A stretch of 64,000 bases of DNA, from assembly GCA_026552955.1 (NCBI GenBank), contig JAPMTS010000003.1, positions 129,237 through 193,236 of the forward strand. Direction: 5' to 3'. The first letter of the stretch is position 1, and each line of letters opens with the position of its first letter. This DNA is from Candidatus Methanoperedens sp. GTDB lineage: Archaea > Halobacteriota > Methanosarcinia > Methanosarcinales > Methanoperedenaceae. Positions 1 through 58,967 of the stretch are shown one piece after another. The translations under genes and the position numbers were made by a program. Below the pieces are notes generated by a model. That model worked only from the letters and a program-made list of their open reading frames with translations, did no database searches and was not told where the DNA came from.

Positions 1-1679
1 ATTACGCAAACCTGCTAAAAGAACAAAAAAGGAACGAGGAAGCGGAACAGCATTATAAACAGGCGATAGAAGCTGACCCGAAACTCGCGGCGACACATTC
101 GAATTATGCGAACCTGCTATCTGAACAAAAAAGGAACGAGGAAGCAGAACAGCATTATAAACAGGCGATAGAAGCTGACCCGAAACTCGCGGCGGCGCAT
201 TATAATTACGCGAACCTGCTAAAAGAACAAAAAAGGAACGAGGAAGCGGAACAGCATTATAAACAGGCGATAGAAGCTGACCCGAAACTCGCGGCGACAC
301 ATTCGAATTACGCGATCCTGCTAAAAGAACAAAAAAGGAACGAGGAAGCGGAACAGCATTATAAACAGGCGATAGAAACGGAACCGAATTATGCGGCGGC
401 GCATTATAATTACGCGAACCTGCTAAAAGAACAAAAAAGGAACGAGGAAGCGGAACAGCATTATAAACAGGCGATAGAAGCTGACCCGAAACTCGCGGCG
501 ACACATTCGAATTACGCGATCCTGCTAAAAGAACAAAAAAGGAACGAGGAAGCGGAACAGCATTATAAACAGGCGATAGAAACTAACCCGAAATATGCGG
601 CGGCACATTCGAATTACGCGAACCTGCTAAAAGAACAAAAAAGGAACGATGAAGCGGAACAGCATTATAAACAGGCGATAGAAACTGACCCGAATTTGAT
701 CGAAGCTCATGGTGCCTATGGCCTTTTTTTAATTGAAGGTAATCAACGAGAGAACTCATGGAAAGAAACAAAAATAGCTTCCGATCTTTTTCAAAAAGCT
801 TTGCGATTCACGGAATCCCATCTGGCTAAAGCATGGTTTTATGAGGAATATTCAAAAAAATACTTAGGGCAAAATGAATTTTACGAAAGTTCAAAGGATG
901 CTTATTCAGCAGGTCAGGAATATTTAAAAGCGGCTGACATGACAGATGACGGATCGAAGGAGAAATCTGCATTTGAATTGCGCGGGAACGAGCTTATTGC
1001 AAAATCATATATCCGCAAAGAACATAAAAATCCTCCGGAATTAATTAATAATTTAAAAATAGCATCTGAATATTATAAAAAAGCTTCAGTATGCCAGGTT
1101 GGTGGAAGAGAGGAGGTATGTGCAGCATGCAGAAAAGTAATTAATGTTTTTTCGGTAGTTCTGAACTCACTTGATGATATTATTAAAGATAAGGTTCCTA
1201 TGATTAATAAAAATCAATGGAAAGATGATCTTGAAAAATCTAAGATTGTTTATGAACAGAAGGAGTCAGAAAAAGGAATCAAACTTATTGAAACCCTGAA
1301 AGCATTTATCAAATGTGTGGATGAGCTGTATGATTATAAAAAACGCAAATCGATTGTTCAGGAAAAAAGATTGAAGGATTGTTATACAAAATTAATTGAG
1401 GTTAGTGCAAATATTGAAGGCGGACTTAAGAATATCACAGATCCTGCAACTGATATCATAAAAAATTATGCACGAAAAAAAGGATATCCAATTTCAGATG
1501 ATAGTTCAATTGAAAAATCAAAGTCACCTCTTGAATTTCTAGATAAAGGATTAATTAAGGATTTAATAATTATTTTAGCCATAATCGCAGCTTGTATCGC
1601 AATACTTCAATTTCTCAAACTTGATACACAGGCTCTTGAATTTATAAGATCCATCTTTTTCAATGGAAGTTCCCCATGA
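1..1679 (+). CDS. TPR-repeat protein with C-terminal membrane anchor (5' end outside window)
   Basis: The reading frame is open from the first bases, so the N-terminus lies upstream of the window. About 240 visible residues are seven tetratricopeptide repeats of exactly 34 aa (unit begins YANLLKEQKRNEEAEQHYKQ). A non-repetitive, partly helical region of about 300 aa follows, with a cluster of cysteines near positions 1090-1130. A hydrophobic helix rich in I/L/A lies about 20 residues from the end (around 1555-1615) and probably anchors the protein in the membrane. TPRs are protein-interaction scaffolds; no catalytic domain is visible, so the partner is unknown. The stop codon overlaps the ATG of the next gene (ATGA), which suggests translational coupling. 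The methionine at 696 is internal to the frame and is not a start. Confidence 0.85.
   Translation, partial: YANLLKEQKRNEEAEQHYKQAIEADPKLAATHSNYANLLSEQKRNEEAEQHYKQAIEADPKLAAAHYNYANLLKEQKRNEEAEQHYKQAIEADPKLAATHSNYAILLKEQKRNEEAEQHYKQAIETEPNYAAAHYNYANLLKEQKRNEEAEQHYKQAIEADPKLAATHSNYAILLKEQKRNEEAEQHYKQAIETNPKYAAAHSNYANLLKEQKRNDEAEQHYKQAIETDPNLIEAHGAYGLFLIEGNQRENSWKETKIASDLFQKALRFTESHLAKAWFYEEYSKKYLGQNEFYESSKDAYSAGQEYLKAADMTDDGSKEKSAFELRGNELIAKSYIRKEHKNPPELINNLKIASEYYKKASVCQVGGREEVCAACRKVINVFSVVLNSLDDIIKDKVPMINKNQWKDDLEKSKIVYEQKESEKGIKLIETLKAFIKCVDELYDYKKRKSIVQEKRLKDCYTKLIEVSANIEGGLKNITDPATDIIKNYARKKGYPISDDSSIEKSKSPLEFLDKGLIKDLIIILAIIAACIAILQFLKLDTQALEFIRSIFFNGSSP
3..716 (+). repeat. Seven tandem 102-bp repeats encoding TPR units
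   Basis: The core GAACAAAAAAGGAACGA recurs at 21, 123, 225, 327, 429, 531 and 633, exactly 102 bp apart. About 50 bp of each unit is almost invariant at the DNA level, including silent positions. The second half of each unit alternates between a few short cassettes (GCTGACCCGAAACTCGCG, ACGGAACCGAATTATGCG and others; ACACATTCG or GCGCATTAT). The array continues beyond the left edge and decays after 700. Confidence 0.95.
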
Positions 1680-2515
1680 CCCTCCCCATCCTCGACAACC
1701 ACATGCACCTCAATCCCTCCGGCCGCTGCCTCGACGCAGTCCGCGAATTCGCGCGCGCGGGCGGCACGCATATCGTTCTTGTCTCGCTCCCACCCTGGTC
1801 GCTGGGCATCGATATAAACTCGCCTGAGGATTACAGGAAGGTGTTTGACAGGATCCTCAAAATAGCCCGGCGAGCTGAAGAAGTTGAAAAAGTGAAGGTC
1901 TTTGTGGTGCTTGGAGTACATCCTGCCGAGCTCACCAAATACTACGGGCGCCTGGGTCTTTCGCGCTCTGTGGAAATAATGAGGGGAGGGCTGGAAATTG
2001 CCAGCGAATATGTGGCCCGGGGAAAAGCCATTGGATTAAAATCAGGGCGCCCTCATTATGAAGTTGAGCCCAAAATATGGACAGAATCCAATGACATCAT
2101 GCGTTACAGCTTTGAGCTTGCAAAGGAGGCCGGATGTGCAGTACAGCTTCATACTGAAAGCGCTACAGAGGAAGGGCTTGCAGAAATTGCCGGGATTGCA
2201 AGAAGCGTGGGATTGCCGGATGGAAAAGTGATAAAGCATTTTTCACCGCCCATGATACAAATATGCGAAAAACACGGGATTTTTCCGAGCGTGCTTGCGG
2301 GTGAGAATGCGATTGAAACAGCTCTGGGTGAAGGAACGCGTTTCATGATGGAAACTGATTATATCGACGATCTTCAAAGGCCAGGTTCCGTATTGGGGCC
2401 AAAGACCGTCCCAAGAAGGACAAAACACCTTATTGATACATGGGGCGAGGATGTGTTCTGGAAGATCCATAAAGAAAATCCGGAAAAAGTGTATGGAGTG
2501 GAGATCAACCTGTAG
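1676..2515 (+). CDS. TatD-like metal-dependent hydrolase (COG1099 type)
   Basis: A 279-aa TIM-barrel hydrolase of the TatD/amidohydrolase superfamily. Visible metal-site motifs are HxH near the N-terminus (DNHMHL, H9 and H11), a histidine in QLHTE, another in IKHFSP, and an aspartate in ETDYIDD. Bacterial TatD proteins are metal-dependent DNases; the archaeal COG1099 branch has no settled substrate, so I name only the class. The start ATG overlaps the upstream TGA. The 3' end overlaps the convergent gene by 11 bases. The first 120 bases are clearly more G+C-rich than the upstream gene. Confidence 0.8.
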   Translation: MTLPILDNHMHLNPSGRCLDAVREFARAGGTHIVLVSLPPWSLGIDINSPEDYRKVFDRILKIARRAEEVEKVKVFVVLGVHPAELTKYYGRLGLSRSVEIMRGGLEIASEYVARGKAIGLKSGRPHYEVEPKIWTESNDIMRYSFELAKEAGCAVQLHTESATEEGLAEIAGIARSVGLPDGKVIKHFSPPMIQICEKHGIFPSVLAGENAIETALGEGTRFMMETDYIDDLQRPGSVLGPKTVPRRTKHLIDTWGEDVFWKIHKENPEKVYGVEINL

Positions 2516-3548
2516 AATATATCAATATCCTGGATTCTTCCTTGAATTCTGGGACTCTGAAATCCCTTGAAATAATTTTGCCACCACCCAGAACCAGCTG
2601 GATTTTTCCCCTGTCAAGAGAATAAAGCTCCTGTTCTGTTGATGACAGGTTTATTTGAATAATTCCCACATCACCCTTTTTTAGTATTGTTTTACCTTTT
2701 CCGGTCATTTTTCCTTCATAATAAAAGTGCGATTCATCAGCATTCATACCGTAATTCAATGTTGATGTAGTGGTTTTGTCGATAAATTTTACTGTTATGG
2801 AATTGAAATTAAAATCCAGATCCATTGCCTCAATGTATAGAGTAAGTCCGACAATAGGACCTTTGGATATATTTGTTCGTTCTCCCGCAATAGATGTAAT
2901 ATATAAATTCGAGGAAATATCATGGATGGTTTCCTCACCCGTTGACATGGATCCTTGATATAAATTGCCGACTGAGGTGGTCAATCTATTACCCGCAAAT
3001 ATTAAAAAAATTATTATTATGGCAATAACAAAAAAACCAAGGGTTTTACGATTTATTAATTCATAAAAAAAATTTTCTCGATGTTTCTTATCCATGAAAA
3101 TTATATTGAAATCAAAAATGAGCGATTTCAATAAGATCAACATGGGAATCAAAAGAATTATGACAAACACTAATAAAATGACTTCTGAACTGATCCCTCC
3201 TGGTTTTGTGATCCAGAAGAGGAAAATTGCAGCAAGTATTATAATATTTGAAATACTTGAAATAATTTCTAATGCAACCTTATTAATTATCCTTATTTCC
3301 ACAATATTCGGGTCATCTTTGCTGGTATCATTTTCAAATTTGACAGAATTGACATCCGTTATAAGAGTTCTCAGGAAAAAAATAAATGCAATAATAAAAA
3401 ACCCGATAATACCCATGGATAAAACATAAAAATTTTCTCCGATCATGTCTAAAAGGCTGTAATATAAAATTATTATGATTGCAGCAAAAAGAGATAGGCT
3501 GGCGTAAAGTTCCAATGCAACCTTATACCTGAATGATATTTTTATCAT
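2505..3548 (-). CDS. Multispanning membrane protein with C-terminal archaellin-like domain
   Basis: 347 aa. The N-terminal about 175 residues hold four hydrophobic helices in two similar halves, each opening with KVALE(L/I) and ending in a basic/acidic linker (RTLITD; KSLIFD). This looks like an internal duplication. A fifth helix (about 180-200) runs into SVGNLYQGSMSTGEET and DISSNLYITSI, the layout of an archaellin: hydrophobic core helix, Gln/Gly/Thr-Gly-Glu stretch, then beta-sandwich. The rest matches the archaellin beta domain pattern (KKGDVGIIQINLS; GKIQLVLGGGK; final FRVPEF). Seen: the order of these parts. Inferred: a cell-surface or sensory protein using an archaellin-type head, not a filament subunit, because the head follows four other membrane spans. 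Confidence 0.65.
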   Translation of the reverse strand: MIKISFRYKVALELYASLSLFAAIIIILYYSLLDMIGENFYVLSMGIIGFFIIAFIFFLRTLITDVNSVKFENDTSKDDPNIVEIRIINKVALEIISSISNIIILAAIFLFWITKPGGISSEVILLVFVIILLIPMLILLKSLIFDFNIIFMDKKHRENFFYELINRKTLGFFVIAIIIIFLIFAGNRLTTSVGNLYQGSMSTGEETIHDISSNLYITSIAGERTNISKGPIVGLTLYIEAMDLDFNFNSITVKFIDKTTTSTLNYGMNADESHFYYEGKMTGKGKTILKKGDVGIIQINLSSTEQELYSLDRGKIQLVLGGGKIISRDFRVPEFKEESRILIYSTG

Positions 3549-3568
3549 ATTCCTGCGTTTATTTTAAT

Positions 3569-3596
3569 TGGTTCATGCAATTTGCACTATGAACCA
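3569..3596. promoter_or_regulatory. Inverted repeat in a divergent promoter region
   Basis: TGGTTCAT (3569-3576) and ATGAACCA (3589-3596) are a perfect 8-bp inverted repeat. Inside it, GCAA-T-TTGC extends the symmetry with a 3-base bulge. It lies between the membrane/archaellin gene (leftward) and pgk (rightward), next to TATA-rich sequence at 3600-3640. It may be an operator; no regulator is identifiable. Confidence 0.45.
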
Positions 3597-3727
3597 GGGT
3601 TATATATACATATATAGAATAGTTGTTATATATCTATTCCTATCTATTATTTTTGATTAAATCTACTACATTATGAAATCCTTCAGTAAATTATAATGCT
3701 ACCCTCTTAGAATTAAAGTACTTCAAT

Positions 3728-4951
3728 ATGACTAGGGATTACCTGACTATCGATGACATTGAAATAAAAAGCAAGACGGTCTTGTGCAGGCTTGACCTTA
3801 ATTCACCCATGGACCCTAACGGGATCATTCTTGATGATAGCCGATTTAGGAGCCACATCATAACCTTAAGGGAATTGGAGGGCTCAAAAGTTGTAATACT
3901 TTCCCATCAGAGCCGTCCTGGCAAAAGCGATTTTACCACAATGGAGCCTCATGCGAAGCAGTTATCGAAATTGATGAGGCGCAATATAAATCATATTGAT
4001 GATATTTTCGGCTCTCATGCTATTGAAGCAATCAAGAAAATGAATAAAGGCGATATAATCCTGCTTGAAAATACACGCTTTTATTCGGAAGAATCGCTTG
4101 AACGCGCGCCAAAAGACCACAAAAAAACACATATGGTCAGACGTCTTGCTGCTGTTTGCGATATATTCCTGAACGATGCGTTTTCAGTTTCACACAGGTC
4201 GCATCTTTCAGTTACGGGCTTTACAGAAACATTAACAAGCGTAGCGGGAAGAATTATGGAAAAAGAGATCGATTCCCTTAACAGGGGAATGTCCTGCTCC
4301 GAGCGACCTTGCGTCTATGTGCTTGGAGGAACAAAGGTGGATGATTCCATTAAAGTAACAAATAACGTGCTTGAGCGGGGATGTGCTGACAGGGTTCTCG
4401 TTACAGGGGTCGTGGCTAATGTGTTCCTGGCAGCTTCAGGAGTAAATATTGGGGAGGTAAATATGAGTTTTATCGATAAGCAGGGCTATTTGCCCCAGAT
4501 AGAAATTGCTAAAGTTCTTCTTAAACGTTTCCCGGACAATATTGGTCTTCCCGTAGATGTTGCGTTAAATAAGGATGATGAACGGATCGAAGAAAAAATA
4601 AGTAATCTCAGGCCTGCATTGCCTATCCACGATATTGGCATTGAAACAATGGTAAAATTCTCCGAGGAAATAAGCAGGGCAAAAACTGTGGTCATGAACG
4701 GCCCTGCAGGAGTATTTGAAAATGAACCTTTCGCCCTGGGGACTCAAGAACTTATAAAGGCAGGGGCAAAATCAGGTTTTTCTGTTATAGGAGGTGGGCA
4801 TATTGCAGCAGCAGCCGAACAAATGGGTATTTCAAACAAATTCTCTCATGTAAGCACAGGAGGCGGCGCCTGTATTGATTTCCTGGCTGGTGAAAAACTG
4901 CCCGGTATTGAGGCATTAAAGGATGCTGCAAGGAAATACCGGCAAAAATAA
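3728..4951 (+). CDS. pgk: Phosphoglycerate kinase
   Basis: 407 aa, the usual length. It interconverts 1,3-bisphosphoglycerate + ADP and 3-phosphoglycerate + ATP in glycolysis/gluconeogenesis. The N-terminal substrate motif is VLCRLDLNSPMD (family: RVDFNVP), HQSRPG and ENTRFY follow, and LGGTKVDDSIKV opens the nucleotide domain. MNGPAGVFE and GGGHIAAAAE/STGGGA form the ATP-binding loops. The ATG at 3728 is the first in frame and gives the expected N-terminus; no convincing Shine-Dalgarno is visible, so a short leader is likely. ApgM is encoded 2 kb downstream and a class I aldolase at 35.2 kb, so several gluconeogenic genes share this window. Confidence 0.95.
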   Translation: MTRDYLTIDDIEIKSKTVLCRLDLNSPMDPNGIILDDSRFRSHIITLRELEGSKVVILSHQSRPGKSDFTTMEPHAKQLSKLMRRNINHIDDIFGSHAIEAIKKMNKGDIILLENTRFYSEESLERAPKDHKKTHMVRRLAAVCDIFLNDAFSVSHRSHLSVTGFTETLTSVAGRIMEKEIDSLNRGMSCSERPCVYVLGGTKVDDSIKVTNNVLERGCADRVLVTGVVANVFLAASGVNIGEVNMSFIDKQGYLPQIEIAKVLLKRFPDNIGLPVDVALNKDDERIEEKISNLRPALPIHDIGIETMVKFSEEISRAKTVVMNGPAGVFENEPFALGTQELIKAGAKSGFSVIGGGHIAAAAEQMGISNKFSHVSTGGGACIDFLAGEKLPGIEALKDAARKYRQK

Positions 4952-5546
4952 GCTTGCAGGTTTTGATTTCACAGGCAATATGGTCTTGCTTGTGGATGAT
5001 ATTATTAAAACGCATCCATTTTTCAATCATATGAGAATTGACAATATCCTTGTCGCAATATCTCCCTCAAACGGTAACAAGAATGGAGTTGTTGCAAAAC
5101 TGCGCCCCATGCTTTTCGAAGGAGGTTCCAGAACAAAAGTAGTCCGGGGAATAGAATACGCAGTCCCGGAAGTCATAATAAATCGCAGAAATATTCTTTA
5201 TATTGTTTATTTTCATTTGCCGCGTTTCCTGAATCACGGAAACCAAAAGACAAAACTGTCGACTGTCATCCATGAATTGCATCATGTTTCCCCTTTATTT
5301 AATGGTGATATCAGACGGTATTCGGGAAAGAATTATGCTCATGGCAATTCACGCAAGGACTTTGATGAACTGATAAGTATTTATACTGAAGAATATATAA
5401 AAAGTACGATTCATCCGGAATTGAGCGTTTTCTTAAAATACAGGTATGATGAGCTTAAGCGCAAATATGGGGCGATTTATGGTGATATGATACGTATTCC
5501 GCGTTTAAAAAATTCTTTATTCAAACAACCCTTGGCAAACATTTAA
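4923..5546 (+). CDS. Putative zinc metallopeptidase (HELHH)
   Basis: Up to 207 aa. The recognisable element is VIHELHHVSP, an HExxH zinc-binding motif near residue 118, followed by an Asp/Glu-rich segment (DFDELISIYTEEYIK) that could give the third ligand. No signal peptide or membrane helix is evident, so it is probably cytoplasmic. The start is uncertain: the ATG at 4923 lies inside pgk, while the ATG at 4980 avoids the overlap but begins within a conserved-looking segment (FDFTGNMVLLVDDI). The position directly after pgk implies co-transcription. Substrate unknown. Confidence 0.6.
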   Translation: MLQGNTGKNKLAGFDFTGNMVLLVDDIIKTHPFFNHMRIDNILVAISPSNGNKNGVVAKLRPMLFEGGSRTKVVRGIEYAVPEVIINRRNILYIVYFHLPRFLNHGNQKTKLSTVIHELHHVSPLFNGDIRRYSGKNYAHGNSRKDFDELISIYTEEYIKSTIHPELSVFLKYRYDELKRKYGAIYGDMIRIPRLKNSLFKQPLANI

Positions 5547-5572
5547 CCATTCAAGATATTATTTAGGCCACG

Positions 5573-6523
5573 ATGAAGAAGTTTCATTTATTGATTCAAA
5601 TCGTTATTGGATTAATTATTATTGCATTTATTTTGAGCAAACTGGATATTAACCAGTTATTTCTTGTTCTCAAAAAAACCAACATGACATATTTCATCCT
5701 TGCTTGTCTCTCCTACCTGTTCGTTAATCTGTTACTGTCATTAAGATTATCCTATCTTTTGAAAAAAATTGGGTATAAAATAAGATTTAAGAACGTATTT
5801 CTTTCACACATGGCGGGAATGATCATTGGTGATATAACTCCCGGGAGAAGCGGCTATTTTTTAACACCCACGATCTTAAAGAAAAAGGGAAGTATTCCAA
5901 TTACGGAAGGAATGGCATGTATTTTTGCTCCGCAGGGAATTGAATTTATCCTTAAAGTGGGTGGGGCTATTGCTGCTATAATTTACTTATCGCTGTATTC
6001 AAATATTGAAGAAAATACAATTATTTATGCCGGGATTGGGTCGGCAATTCTCCTTATAGTCGGGGTATTGATGTTGGTGATATCATGGAATAATGAAAGA
6101 TTGACAACAAAATTCCTGAGTAAGATTCCATTTCTTAATAAATTTACTGTAAATCTCTCTTCCTTCAAAGACAGGAGCATGCTGATCAAAGATAGCTTGA
6201 ACATTATTTTGTTAATATATACAATTGGATGGATCTTTGCAGCACTGCAGTGGTACTTTTTAGGAAAAGCTGTTGGGATCGATAATATTTCCCTTTTTGC
6301 TTTTTTCCTTCTTCATCCCCTCATTACTATTCTGATGTTTGTCCCACTGACTCCTGCCGGATTTGGACTGATGGAGTGGGTTATTATTCTCGTATTTTCA
6401 TTATTTGGTATTTCGCCGGCTCTTGGAATGGCTTTCTCGGTCCTGGTGAGAGTCAGTATTTTAGGTGTAGATTTGATCGGATTAAAGACTGTCATTACCG
6501 CATCAAGAAAATATGGTTTGTGA
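5573..6523 (+). CDS. Flippase-like integral membrane protein (UPF0104/LPG synthase TM family)
   Basis: 316 aa with about eight hydrophobic helices. The pattern near the first third (DITPGRSGYFLTP), a glycine-rich helix near PQGIEFILKVGG and the final PLTPAGFGLMEW are typical of the family that includes the membrane part of lysylphosphatidylglycerol synthase and archaeal COG0392 proteins. Members are associated with lipid or lipid-linked sugar transfer across the membrane; the substrate here is not deducible. It starts 26 bases after the metallopeptidase gene. Confidence 0.75.
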   Translation: MKKFHLLIQIVIGLIIIAFILSKLDINQLFLVLKKTNMTYFILACLSYLFVNLLLSLRLSYLLKKIGYKIRFKNVFLSHMAGMIIGDITPGRSGYFLTPTILKKKGSIPITEGMACIFAPQGIEFILKVGGAIAAIIYLSLYSNIEENTIIYAGIGSAILLIVGVLMLVISWNNERLTTKFLSKIPFLNKFTVNLSSFKDRSMLIKDSLNIILLIYTIGWIFAALQWYFLGKAVGIDNISLFAFFLLHPLITILMFVPLTPAGFGLMEWVIILVFSLFGISPALGMAFSVLVRVSILGVDLIGLKTVITASRKYGL

Positions 6524-6950
6524 AAGTCATATACAGTTAATTGACAATTCAGGAGGTCTTCCCCCCGCCACATAAAAATTTTTCCCTATCCCACGGTCAA
6601 TTTATCAGGTATATTAACGTTCTTTGTTTTAGGTTTTTGAACCGGGCAGTTTTTTTTGTAATCCTCCAAAATGCATAATATCTGATAGGGAATTCTTGCA
6701 GGATTGATAAACAAGATGCTTGAGAACAATTAATATTGTAATAGTATTATATATAAACATAAAATGATTTTTAGGCATATAACCGCATTTGATTCTCCTG
6801 AGATCTTCAAGCGGTGAATATTTGATATAATTGTTCATAAGATCCACATCTTCTGACATGATAATGATTATTGTAATAACATATATACCTATCTGTACGT
6901 TCACGTCATTAAAAAAAGTTATGAAAGTATCAAATTTCGACCTGAAATAC
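6524..6950. other. 427-bp gene-poor stretch
   Basis: It lies between the 3' ends of the flippase-like gene and apgM, which are convergent. A 91-codon GTG-initiated leftward frame (6629-6904) has no recognisable domain, no ribosome-binding site and A+T-driven isoleucine runs, so I do not call it. No repeat or RNA gene is seen. Confidence 0.5.
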
Positions 6951-8126
6951 TTAAGATATCAGTAATTTCATCAGCATGTATCCTTCTATAAGCCCAAAAA
7001 TCCCTTCTTTTGCAGCGAATTCATCATAGTTGCCCACATAATCCGCTTTTTCAGTGGAAGAGTAGATAGCAAATGGAACCGGTTCTCTTGTATGCGTTCT
7101 TATCGATAATGGAGTGGGATGGTCGGGCAAAACCATGACCTTGAAATCCCCGAACCCACCGAGTTCATTAAGCATACCCCCTACCACTTTATCGTCAAAA
7201 TCATATATCGCTTTTATCTTTGCCTCAATATTTCCCATATGTCCGGCTTCATCAGGTGCTTCGACATGCACAAGGACAAAATCCCGCTCTTTTAAGGATG
7301 CCAGGGCATACTGCGCTTTTCCGGAAAAATTAGTATCCAGGTATCCGGTAGCACCCGGAACATCGATGATATTAAGACCGGCATACTTCCCGATCCCTTT
7401 TAACAGGTCTACCGCTGAAATGATAGAACCTGAAATCCCGAACATATGCTTAAATAGAGGCATGTCCGGCGCTCTTCCCTGTCCCCATGGCCAGATGAGA
7501 TTAGCTACGTTCTTTCCCGCTTTTTTTCTGTTATTATTGACCTCATGGTTTTCAAGAATGGGTTTTGAATCCCTGATGAGTGATATCAGGAACTCCGAGG
7601 ATTCACCATGCGGCATTACATCCTCAATGGATTGACCCACTACATCATGAGGCGGGGTACACTGCGCAAACTCTCCCTGTTTCATTACAAGCAGGTGCCT
7701 GTAACTCACACCAGCATGAAATCGGCAGGAATTGCCAAGTTCTTTATCAACAGCTTTGATCAGGATACCCGCTTCCTCACTGGAAATATGGCCTGAGCTA
7801 TAATCTGCGAGCAATCCATTTTTCTCGGTGATAAGATTGCACCGAAAAGCGATCTCATCTTTTTGCAGTTTTATTCCGATACTTGCTGCTTCAAGAGGCC
7901 CGCGTCCTGAATAATATTTTTGTGGATCATATCCCATAATAGAAAGATTTGCCACATCGCTTCCGGGCGGCTTATCATCGGGTACGGTCCTGGCAAGGCC
8001 GCATTTTCCGTGTTTTGCGATAAAATCCATATTTGGGGTATCTGCAGCTTGAAGGGGGGTTAAACCTCCAAGTTCCGGAATTGGATAGTCGGCCATTCCA
8101 TCGCCAACAAGGACAATATATTTCAT
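6951..8126 (-). CDS. apgM: Cofactor-independent phosphoglycerate mutase, archaeal type
   Basis: 391 aa from the ATG at 8126 (start MKYIVLVGDGMADYP). It interconverts 3- and 2-phosphoglycerate without 2,3-bisphosphoglycerate and belongs to the alkaline phosphatase superfamily. Metal and phosphate motifs: GDGMAD at the N-terminus, PGSDVANLSIMGYD with the nucleophilic serine, HVEAPDEAGHMG, and LPDHPTP near the C-terminus. The frame can be extended nine codons to a TTG at 8153, but the family N-terminus and a G-rich stretch just before 8126 favour the ATG. Confidence 0.92.
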   Translation of the reverse strand: MKYIVLVGDGMADYPIPELGGLTPLQAADTPNMDFIAKHGKCGLARTVPDDKPPGSDVANLSIMGYDPQKYYSGRGPLEAASIGIKLQKDEIAFRCNLITEKNGLLADYSSGHISSEEAGILIKAVDKELGNSCRFHAGVSYRHLLVMKQGEFAQCTPPHDVVGQSIEDVMPHGESSEFLISLIRDSKPILENHEVNNNRKKAGKNVANLIWPWGQGRAPDMPLFKHMFGISGSIISAVDLLKGIGKYAGLNIIDVPGATGYLDTNFSGKAQYALASLKERDFVLVHVEAPDEAGHMGNIEAKIKAIYDFDDKVVGGMLNELGGFGDFKVMVLPDHPTPLSIRTHTREPVPFAIYSSTEKADYVGNYDEFAAKEGIFGLIEGYMLMKLLIS

Positions 8127-57326: not shown

Positions 57327-58541
57327 ATGAAGAATGGTGGAATTAAGAATAAAATAATGATAGGATCGATGATAACATTTGTAATTATCATAAATATTCT
57401 TATTGTTGGGGCCTCCAACAATACGGTTTTGTATCCGGGGAATAGTTTTGTCGATCCTTCCGTTAGTATAGATGTAAATGATTTTTCTATTGGTTCTGAA
57501 AGTTATGTTGGACCATTCACTTCGTTCACAGGAGAATATGCCCATATCGGAAGCAATAGCGATTTCCAGGACGGCGTCAGTAATTCCGGGAATATAACAA
57601 TAAAAGACGATGCTGTGGTCGCCCATGGGGCCCATCTTGAAGGAGAGGTGGAGATCGGGAATTTCGCATTCATCGGATTTAACTCATTTATCAAAGATGC
57701 AAGAATCGGTGAAGGTGCCTATATAGGAATTGGAAGCAAGGTCACTGGCATTGATATACCTCCCGGCAAATCCGTACCGCAGGCATCAGTGGTCGACAGT
57801 ACAGATGACATTGAAAAGCTTGGACCTGTCACAAAAGAGCAGGAAGAATTCGTAGAAGAGGTCATAGACGTAAATAGAGCCCTTGCAATAGGATACACCC
57901 GGTTGTTTGAGAAAAATGGGGCATCCGATTTTGGCAGTGTCGGTCCTAACGGTGATGGAGATATATTAATAGAAGGGAAGGATATTCTCGCACGAAGTGG
58001 AAATAACATGCCTGTTATTGGAGCATCTTCTACCATTGGATCAACGCGAATAATAGGAGATGTCTTCCTGGGTGAGAATAGTATTGTAGAGAATGGAACA
58101 TCCATAAGGGCTGATGAGGGGATCCCGATAAAAATTGGAAAAAATGCACAAATAGCTATGAACAATACATTCCATTCCCTGAATGATCAAGCGATCATTA
58201 TTGGAAATGATCTCAAATTGGGAAGTGATTCAGTATTGCATGGACCGCTTGTTCTTGGCGAGAAGGTAACCATAGGGAGCAGGGCCGTGGTCTTTAAATC
58301 CACGATCGGAAATAATGTGCAAATCGGCGACGATGCCATAGTTGTTGGCGTTAAAGTCCCTGATGGAACCGTGATACCATCGGGTTCTGTTGTCGAAACA
58401 CAAAAAGATGTGAGACTATTGAATCCCGCTGCTGCTCCGGGCACAAAATGGGTGTCAAATATGGACCTGTTCCTTGTATCTATGGTTCCGATCCTTCTTG
58501 GCCTTATGATGTCAGTGGTTTTGAGAAAAAAAGAACATTAA
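57327..58541 (+). CDS. Membrane-anchored tandem gamma-carbonic-anhydrase-like protein
   Basis: 404 aa. Signal anchor (about 9-28), two left-handed beta-helix domains (about 40-165 and 225-365), and a C-terminal membrane helix (about 381-400). Compared with Cam of Methanosarcina thermophila, domain 1 keeps the His117 position (VVAHGAH, His100) and the Gln75/Asp76 motif (FQDGV), but has Ser87 and Glu105 in place of His81 and His122. Domain 2 keeps Arg59/Asp61/Glu62 (RADEG) and His81/His122 (His283, His305), but has Ser300 in place of His117. Positions were aligned by eye. In Cam the zinc is held by His81/His122 of one subunit and His117 of the next, so the two domains are complementary. Extracytoplasmic location is inferred. 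Confidence 0.8.
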   Translation: MKNGGIKNKIMIGSMITFVIIINILIVGASNNTVLYPGNSFVDPSVSIDVNDFSIGSESYVGPFTSFTGEYAHIGSNSDFQDGVSNSGNITIKDDAVVAHGAHLEGEVEIGNFAFIGFNSFIKDARIGEGAYIGIGSKVTGIDIPPGKSVPQASVVDSTDDIEKLGPVTKEQEEFVEEVIDVNRALAIGYTRLFEKNGASDFGSVGPNGDGDILIEGKDILARSGNNMPVIGASSTIGSTRIIGDVFLGENSIVENGTSIRADEGIPIKIGKNAQIAMNNTFHSLNDQAIIIGNDLKLGSDSVLHGPLVLGEKVTIGSRAVVFKSTIGNNVQIGDDAIVVGVKVPDGTVIPSGSVVETQKDVRLLNPAAAPGTKWVSNMDLFLVSMVPILLGLMMSVVLRKKEH

Positions 58542-58554
58542 GAGGATAAAATTT

Positions 58555-58914
58555 TTAATCCTCTTCATCTTCTTCCTCTTCTTTTCCAGCATCAAGCAGC
58601 AGTTCGCCATATATCAATTTTTCAATTACCTGGGAAACAAAAAGTCGTTTATGGTATTTTTCGATATCTTCATTGAGGTGGAGCTGTGAATCGATCTGGA
58701 CCCTTAGCATTACGAACCTGAATTTTTCCGGATCCTCAATTTCAAGGGATTTTATATCTTCAAGAAAATAGGGTAGTTTATCCGGCTCATCTACCACTTC
58801 GGCGATGATCAGAATATTATTATGGATATTTTCGATATCCACATCTTTTTGTCCCGTAAGTAGTTCTAATGTCTTCAATGAATATTTCTTATCCTTAAAA
58901 AAGATTACATCCAT
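58555..58914 (-). CDS. Small acidic protein of unknown function
   Basis: 119 aa from the ATG at 58914 (MDVIFFKDKKYSL); three more codons upstream are possible. Mixed alpha/beta with VDIENIHNNILIIAEVVD and a C-terminal run of nine acidic residues. I do not recognise a family. It is convergent with the carbonic-anhydrase-like gene and divergent from trmI by 53 bases. Confidence 0.55.
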   Translation of the reverse strand: MDVIFFKDKKYSLKTLELLTGQKDVDIENIHNNILIIAEVVDEPDKLPYFLEDIKSLEIEDPEKFRFVMLRVQIDSQLHLNEDIEKYHKRLFVSQVIEKLIYGELLLDAGKEEEEDEED

Positions 58915-58967
58915 AATAACCATGTATTCTATATCTATTAAGTCCTATATTACCCCAGCGGAGAAAA

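Follow-up and report, generated by a model that had tools for sequence, protein, structure and literature searches.

Our results demonstrate that a gene of Candidatus Methanoperedens sp. encodes two fused gamma-carbonic anhydrase (gamma-CA)-like domains between which the residues corresponding to a single Cam-type zinc site are divided. The open reading frame occupies exactly positions 57327 to 58541 (+ strand) of the window, the 64,000-nucleotide stretch of DNA that was analyzed, and encodes a protein of 404 aa for which homologs were found. Residues Arg59, Asp61, Glu62, Gln75, Asp76, His81, His117, His122, and Asn202 of Cam, the gamma-CA of Methanosarcina thermophila (1THJ, 1QRG), are each represented once in the two domains taken together. 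It is probable that the protein is an exported, membrane-tethered gamma-CA, a single chain whose two complementary domains form one composite zinc site at their interface.

Domain layout and relationship to gamma-carbonic anhydrases

Along the protein, a hydrophobic N-terminus is followed by the first domain (D1), comprising a beta-helix and a C-terminal helix, then by a linker, a second beta-helix domain (D2), and a C-terminal membrane helix, all encoded on the + strand. D1 (aa 40 to 158; 57444 to 57800) is a gamma-CA-like left-handed beta-helix recognized by Pfam hexapeptide repeats and by matches to CcmM and Cam, and its Cam-like alpha helix (aa 170 to 193; 57834 to 57905) contains Asn183, the invariant equivalent of Cam Asn202. 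The linker, defined by alignment, spans aa 195 to 226 (57909 to 58004). D2 (aa 227 to 365; 58005 to 58421), identified by its match to Cam, is a left-handed beta-helix of the same type without the C-terminal helix.

The earlier note had described the protein as anchored in the membrane at both ends, and this is supported for one of them. Hydropathy supports a membrane helix at the C-terminus (aa 380 to 399; 58464 to 58523), followed by RKKEH, which is present in all six full-length Methanoperedens proteins and absent from a homolog in Deinococcus. At the other end, a hydropathy peak (aa 10 to 28; 57354 to 57410) marks either a signal peptide or an anchor. The N-terminus, MKNGGIKNK...VGAS, has a Lys-rich start and then a hydrophobic stretch, and resembles a signal peptide no less than it does a permanent anchor. 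An AlphaFold monomer run (two rows), with a pLDDT of 46 and a pTM of 0.34, was too poor for geometry; this low-confidence model places a helix at aa 4 to 30. By the usual topology rules, both domains would lie outside the membrane.

D2 matches Cam of M. thermophila, with an E value of about 5e-20 for the whole protein, and D1 matches CcmM of beta-carboxysomes best (7e-16), followed by Cam (5e-12). The Pfam matches are confined to generic hexapeptide families; the top NCBIfam matches are CcmM and carbonic anhydrase, under the curated cut-offs, and many of the others are acetyltransferases. The protein thus contains a beta-helix of hexapeptide repeats homologous to those of Cam and CcmM, elements of which are present in the low-confidence model, and the three zinc-ligand His residues are found across D1 and D2 together and within neither domain alone. 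With regard to the hydrogen-bond network, residues of the Gln75 and Asn202 types are invariant in D1, and the position of Asn73 is occupied by Asp or Asn (Asp in most Methanoperedens proteins). The acidic loop and the Glu84 of the Cam subclass are absent, with Asn286 or Lys at the Glu84 position, whereas the Glu62 of this subclass is present as the invariant Glu264. The last residue also makes the fit to CamH, which lacks the acidic loop, Glu84, and Glu62, only a partial one. The residue set therefore appears to lie between Cam and CamH, with a full fit to neither subclass.

Division of the zinc-site residues and its conservation

Cam numbering was obtained by counting along chain 3otz_A from the alignment, and Arg59, Asp61, Glu62, Gln75, Asp76, and His81 were located where expected. 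D1 retains Gln75 and Asp76 (Gln81-Asp82; 57567 to 57572; invariant among 7 homologous proteins), the ligand His117 (His100; 57624 to 57626), and Asn202 (Asn183), and has Thr68, Glu70, Tyr71, Ser87, and Glu105, the last of them variable, at the positions of Arg59, Asp61, Glu62, His81, and His122, respectively. D2 retains Arg59, Asp61, and Glu62 (Arg261, Asp263, and Glu264; 58107 to 58118) and the ligands His81 (His283; 58173 to 58175) and His122 (His305; 58239 to 58241). Gln275, Ala277, Met278, and Ser300 (Asp in Deinococcus) occupy its positions for Asn73, Gln75, Asp76, and His117, and the helix bearing Asn202 is missing as well. D2 thus represents the whole His81 side of the site except Glu84, and D1 represents the whole His117 side, with no residue of the opposite side in either. 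Arg59 and Asp61 of Cam pair with Asp76 over the interface.

In the zinc site of Cam, His81 and His122 come from one monomer and His117 comes from its neighbor; Asn73, Gln75, and Asn202 form a hydrogen-bond network, and Glu62 and Glu84 participate in proton transfer (PMC4519908). In complex I of Arabidopsis, the zinc site consists of His130 of gammaCA1 together with His107, His135, and the Glu62/Glu84 equivalents of gammaCA2, and at the gammaCA2-CAL2 interface, His130, Gln101, and Tyr207 of gammaCA2 are opposite His124 and Arg152 of CAL2, so that Gln75 and a Tyr of the C-terminal helix are located on the His117 side (PMC9873573). Judging from residue spacing, Arabidopsis His130 would correspond to Cam His117, His107 and His135 to His81 and His122, and Gln101 to Gln75. 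The earlier note had proposed that D1 keeps only the His117-type ligand with Gln75/Asp76, that D2 keeps only the His81 and His122 types with the RADEG motif, that these two sets meet over subunit interfaces in Cam, and that the two domains together hold exactly one complete site. The alignment with Cam bears out the first two proposals, and both structural papers agree with the third. Because the His81/His122 pair and His117 of Cam come from neighboring subunits, D1 and D2 jointly amount to one complete site; the count of residues holds, and the division reaches the second-shell residues. The Asn202 helix is a further member of the set retained by D1, beyond what had been claimed.

Six further homologs were found in Methanoperedenaceae, five with identities of 89% (a copy that turned up twice, as L001 and L006), 79%, 78%, 77%, and 56%, and one, from another genus, cut by the end of its contig and comprising only the D1 helix and D2 (65% identity over that part). 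A seventh, WP_012694801 (33% identity), is encoded on plasmid 3 of Deinococcus deserti. The His division is identical in all of them wherever sequence is available: none of the three His residues, whose loss from orthologs had been named as evidence against a shared site, is missing from the six Methanoperedenaceae proteins or the Deinococcus protein, the contig-cut copy showing D2 only. All nine retained catalytic-type residues are invariant in the seven full-length proteins, including that of the window, in which 80 of the 404 columns are invariant. The hypergeometric P value is 3e-7 against all columns and 3e-6 against domain columns, and serves as a guide, since the test assumes independent columns and the Methanoperedens sequences are related to each other, the Deinococcus row weighing most. 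The nine corresponding positions in the opposite domain all vary, and of the six His residues only His100, His283, and His305 are invariant. His103, near His100, was considered as an alternative ligand and rejected, being Asp in three homologs and Val in Deinococcus. As the division recurs in relatives and in a desert bacterium, it appears, at the level of sequence, to be maintained by selection.

Distribution, ancestry, and gene neighborhood

The split tandem is present in 7 of 34 Methanoperedenaceae genomes, and a search of 393 genomes from the phylum revealed no further example. The idea that the tandem and canonical Cam exclude each other is not supported: among the 34 genomes, 7 harbor the tandem, 7 harbor a canonical Cam, and one (G005) harbors both, with approximately 1.4 expected by chance. 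A 57-residue fragment of canonical Cam (58% identity) at G030:C24:51110-51283, in a genome with the split tandem, is perhaps a remnant. Other Methanoperedens have canonical Cams that look like lipoproteins, and an exported gamma-CA is therefore normal in this group. The genome of the window also encodes a separate, complete, cytoplasmic gamma-CA of the CamH type without a signal peptide (L079, G000:C36, 3311 to 3862, + strand). Viral contigs contained no match to the tandem alignment, to the Deinococcus protein, or to single-domain gamma-CA, and phages contained only single-domain matches of the PaaY type.

The bacterial search covered plasmids. The tandem of D. deserti (L058, 5866 to 7008), annotated as carbonate dehydratase, has the same two-domain layout and His division as the window protein, with a signal-like N-terminus. 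Its D1 still has residues of the Arg59/Asp61 type (RADP), and the second shell is therefore less cleanly divided there. When single domains were placed in a maximum likelihood tree, D2 of Methanoperedens and D2 of Deinococcus formed a clade (98/98), which indicates that the split predates the divergence of, or a transfer between, the two lineages. For D1, a tree that joins the two lineages in one clade fares as well as the best tree (p-AU 0.5); a common origin of both domains through duplication within Methanoperedens fares less well but is not rejected (p 0.23). The branches are long, and the simplest reading is that a fused, already split gene may have moved between archaea and bacteria. A protein of Peptoclostridium acidaminophilum, WP_025436643 (L059, 2818 to 3798, plasmid EAL2_808p), has the same His division in a weaker form, with GHK in D1 (His117 only), LHLL and IIHG in D2 (His81 and His122), and no matching second shell. 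It is cytoplasmic, more CamH-like, and annotated only as related to DapH/DapD/GlmU, and may be distantly related or have arisen in parallel.

Fused gamma-CA domains of the exported type also occur in two related archaea, differing from the window protein in that all three His are present in every repeat. One is a lipoprotein-like tandem Cam of 437 aa with nearly identical repeats and two complete sites (L035, G046:C192); the other, of 725 aa, consists of three complete Cam repeats with a twin-arginine-like signal and a C-terminal membrane helix (L077, G057:C151, 733 to 2910, - strand). Fusion alone therefore does not force the loss of ligands.

At five loci, that of the window among them, the tandem gene is solitary, flanked by a gene for LL-diaminopimelate aminotransferase and a small acidic open reading frame, both on the opposite strand. 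The small acidic protein (122 aa; window positions 58555 to 58923, - strand), which has no NCBIfam family, is encoded beside the carbonic anhydrase gene in five genomes. In G022, the tandem gene is situated 18 bp downstream of fpoO, closing an fpoKLMNO (archaeal complex I) run (L080, G022:C30:15000-27105, 358 to 7236); FpoO, which has no NCBIfam match, was identified there by its position and Cys motifs. A CcmE-like gene and an arsR/acr3-like pair come after the tandem gene at this locus. At the other 29 fpoO loci, no carbonic anhydrase gene follows fpoO in the DNA examined, some of these loci ending soon after fpoO. The link to complex I, drawn from G022 alone, is a lead and not a finding.

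A putative composite site and its alternatives

In the arrangement that we favor, D1 would supply the His117/Gln75/Asp76/Asn202 side of the zinc site and D2 the His81/His122/Arg59/Asp61/Glu62 side, and the site would form where D1 adjoins D2 in a Cam-like three-fold packing, with the remaining interfaces as dead sites. Each beta-helix ring would then contain one zinc site, whichever domain takes the third place. In Cam, the C-terminal helix is antiparallel to the beta-helix (PMC4519908); the helix of D1 would accordingly lead the chain back to the base, from which D2 could begin next to D1. The most likely reaction at the site would be the interconversion of CO2 and bicarbonate, on the outer side of the cytoplasmic membrane of this CO2-producing methanotroph. 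Against such a site stands the fact that a ring with three-fold symmetry is not filled by the two domains of one chain; candidate assemblies include, for instance, two rings built from three chains, or a ring completed by a third partner. The Asp at the Asn73 position in most Methanoperedens proteins, and the presence of the gene in no more than 7 of the 34 Methanoperedenaceae genomes, also weigh against the favored reading. Against an enzyme stands the lack of the acidic loop and of Glu84, a feature shared with CamH, a type of variable activity (PMC7447434).

The same lack favors a different view of the composite site, namely, that it is real and binds metal and bicarbonate or CO2, with the protein serving as a sensor or as a structural or adaptor module instead of being an enzyme of high efficiency, comparable to the gamma-CA trimer of plant complex I, which is largely inactive. 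Plant gamma-CA modules bind one zinc and their catalysis is disputed (PMC7447434), and the position after fpoO in G022 would also suit an adaptor. However, CcmM-type enzymes are active without Glu84 (PMC4519908). Glu62, lost in CamH and in the plant proteins, is invariant here, and the window protein has no signaling domain; we consider a sensor or adaptor unlikely. The loss of half the ligand positions, and the frequent use of left-handed beta-helix domains as scaffolds, could point to a double beta-helix that is in decay or has a structural role only, its remaining His residues being functionless relics. We find this improbable, as the only invariant His residues are the three able to meet over an interface, accompanied by six second-shell residues in bacteria and archaea, and as the membrane and signal parts are intact. 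Still harder to credit is a left-handed beta-helix acyltransferase or another hexapeptide-repeat enzyme that resembles gamma-CA by chance. The generic Pfam matches and the many acetyltransferases among the NCBIfam matches would be expected of such an enzyme, but the best specific matches are CcmM and Cam, and the Cam-specific RxDEG, QD, three His, and Asn202 helix are each present once.

The proposed exported gamma-CA with one composite site shares with Cam the beta-helix, the C-terminal helix, and membership in an exported group. It differs in its two fused domains, its divided residues, its one site versus three per trimer, and its C-terminal membrane helix. Like the gamma-CA/CAL heterotrimer of plant mitochondrial complex I, it would combine pseudo-heteromeric beta-helices such that one of the interfaces has a complete zinc site (PMC9873573, PMC7447434). 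The plant proteins are separate polypeptides of the CamH type without Glu62 and face the matrix, whereas here one chain shows reciprocal loss in both domains. In beta-carboxysomes, CcmN is the degenerate partner beta-helix; unlike the window protein, CcmM and CcmN are cytoplasmic, are encoded by separate genes, and belong to the carboxysomal scaffold. The earlier note had regarded a fused, pseudo-heteromeric form as unfamiliar. A literature search, limited mainly to freely readable papers, revealed no tandem or fused gamma-CA with divided ligands, and to this extent the statement stands; single-site heteromers, on the other hand, are known as separate subunits in plant complex I. What appears to be new is that a site is divided reciprocally inside a single chain and that this division is retained in both Archaea and Bacteria. 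The lead from G022 raises the further thought, which we hold to be a long shot, that the split tandem arose by fusion and reciprocal domain degeneration as an external single-site CA module working with Fpo in Methanoperedens, an opposite-side counterpart of the gamma-CA heterotrimer module of plant complex I.

The protein would be a clear natural case in which fused copies of a homo-oligomeric enzyme have degenerated reciprocally to share one active site, in an archaeal and a bacterial lineage. The exact complementarity would be striking to specialists, and the chemistry itself is probably ordinary. The protein could serve as a one-chain model for the origin of heteromeric gamma-CAs, such as those of plant complex I and CcmM/CcmN, and for the capabilities of a single site in a trimer whose two other sites are missing. 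Beyond this, it represents a candidate external CO2/bicarbonate enzyme of anaerobic methane oxidizers.
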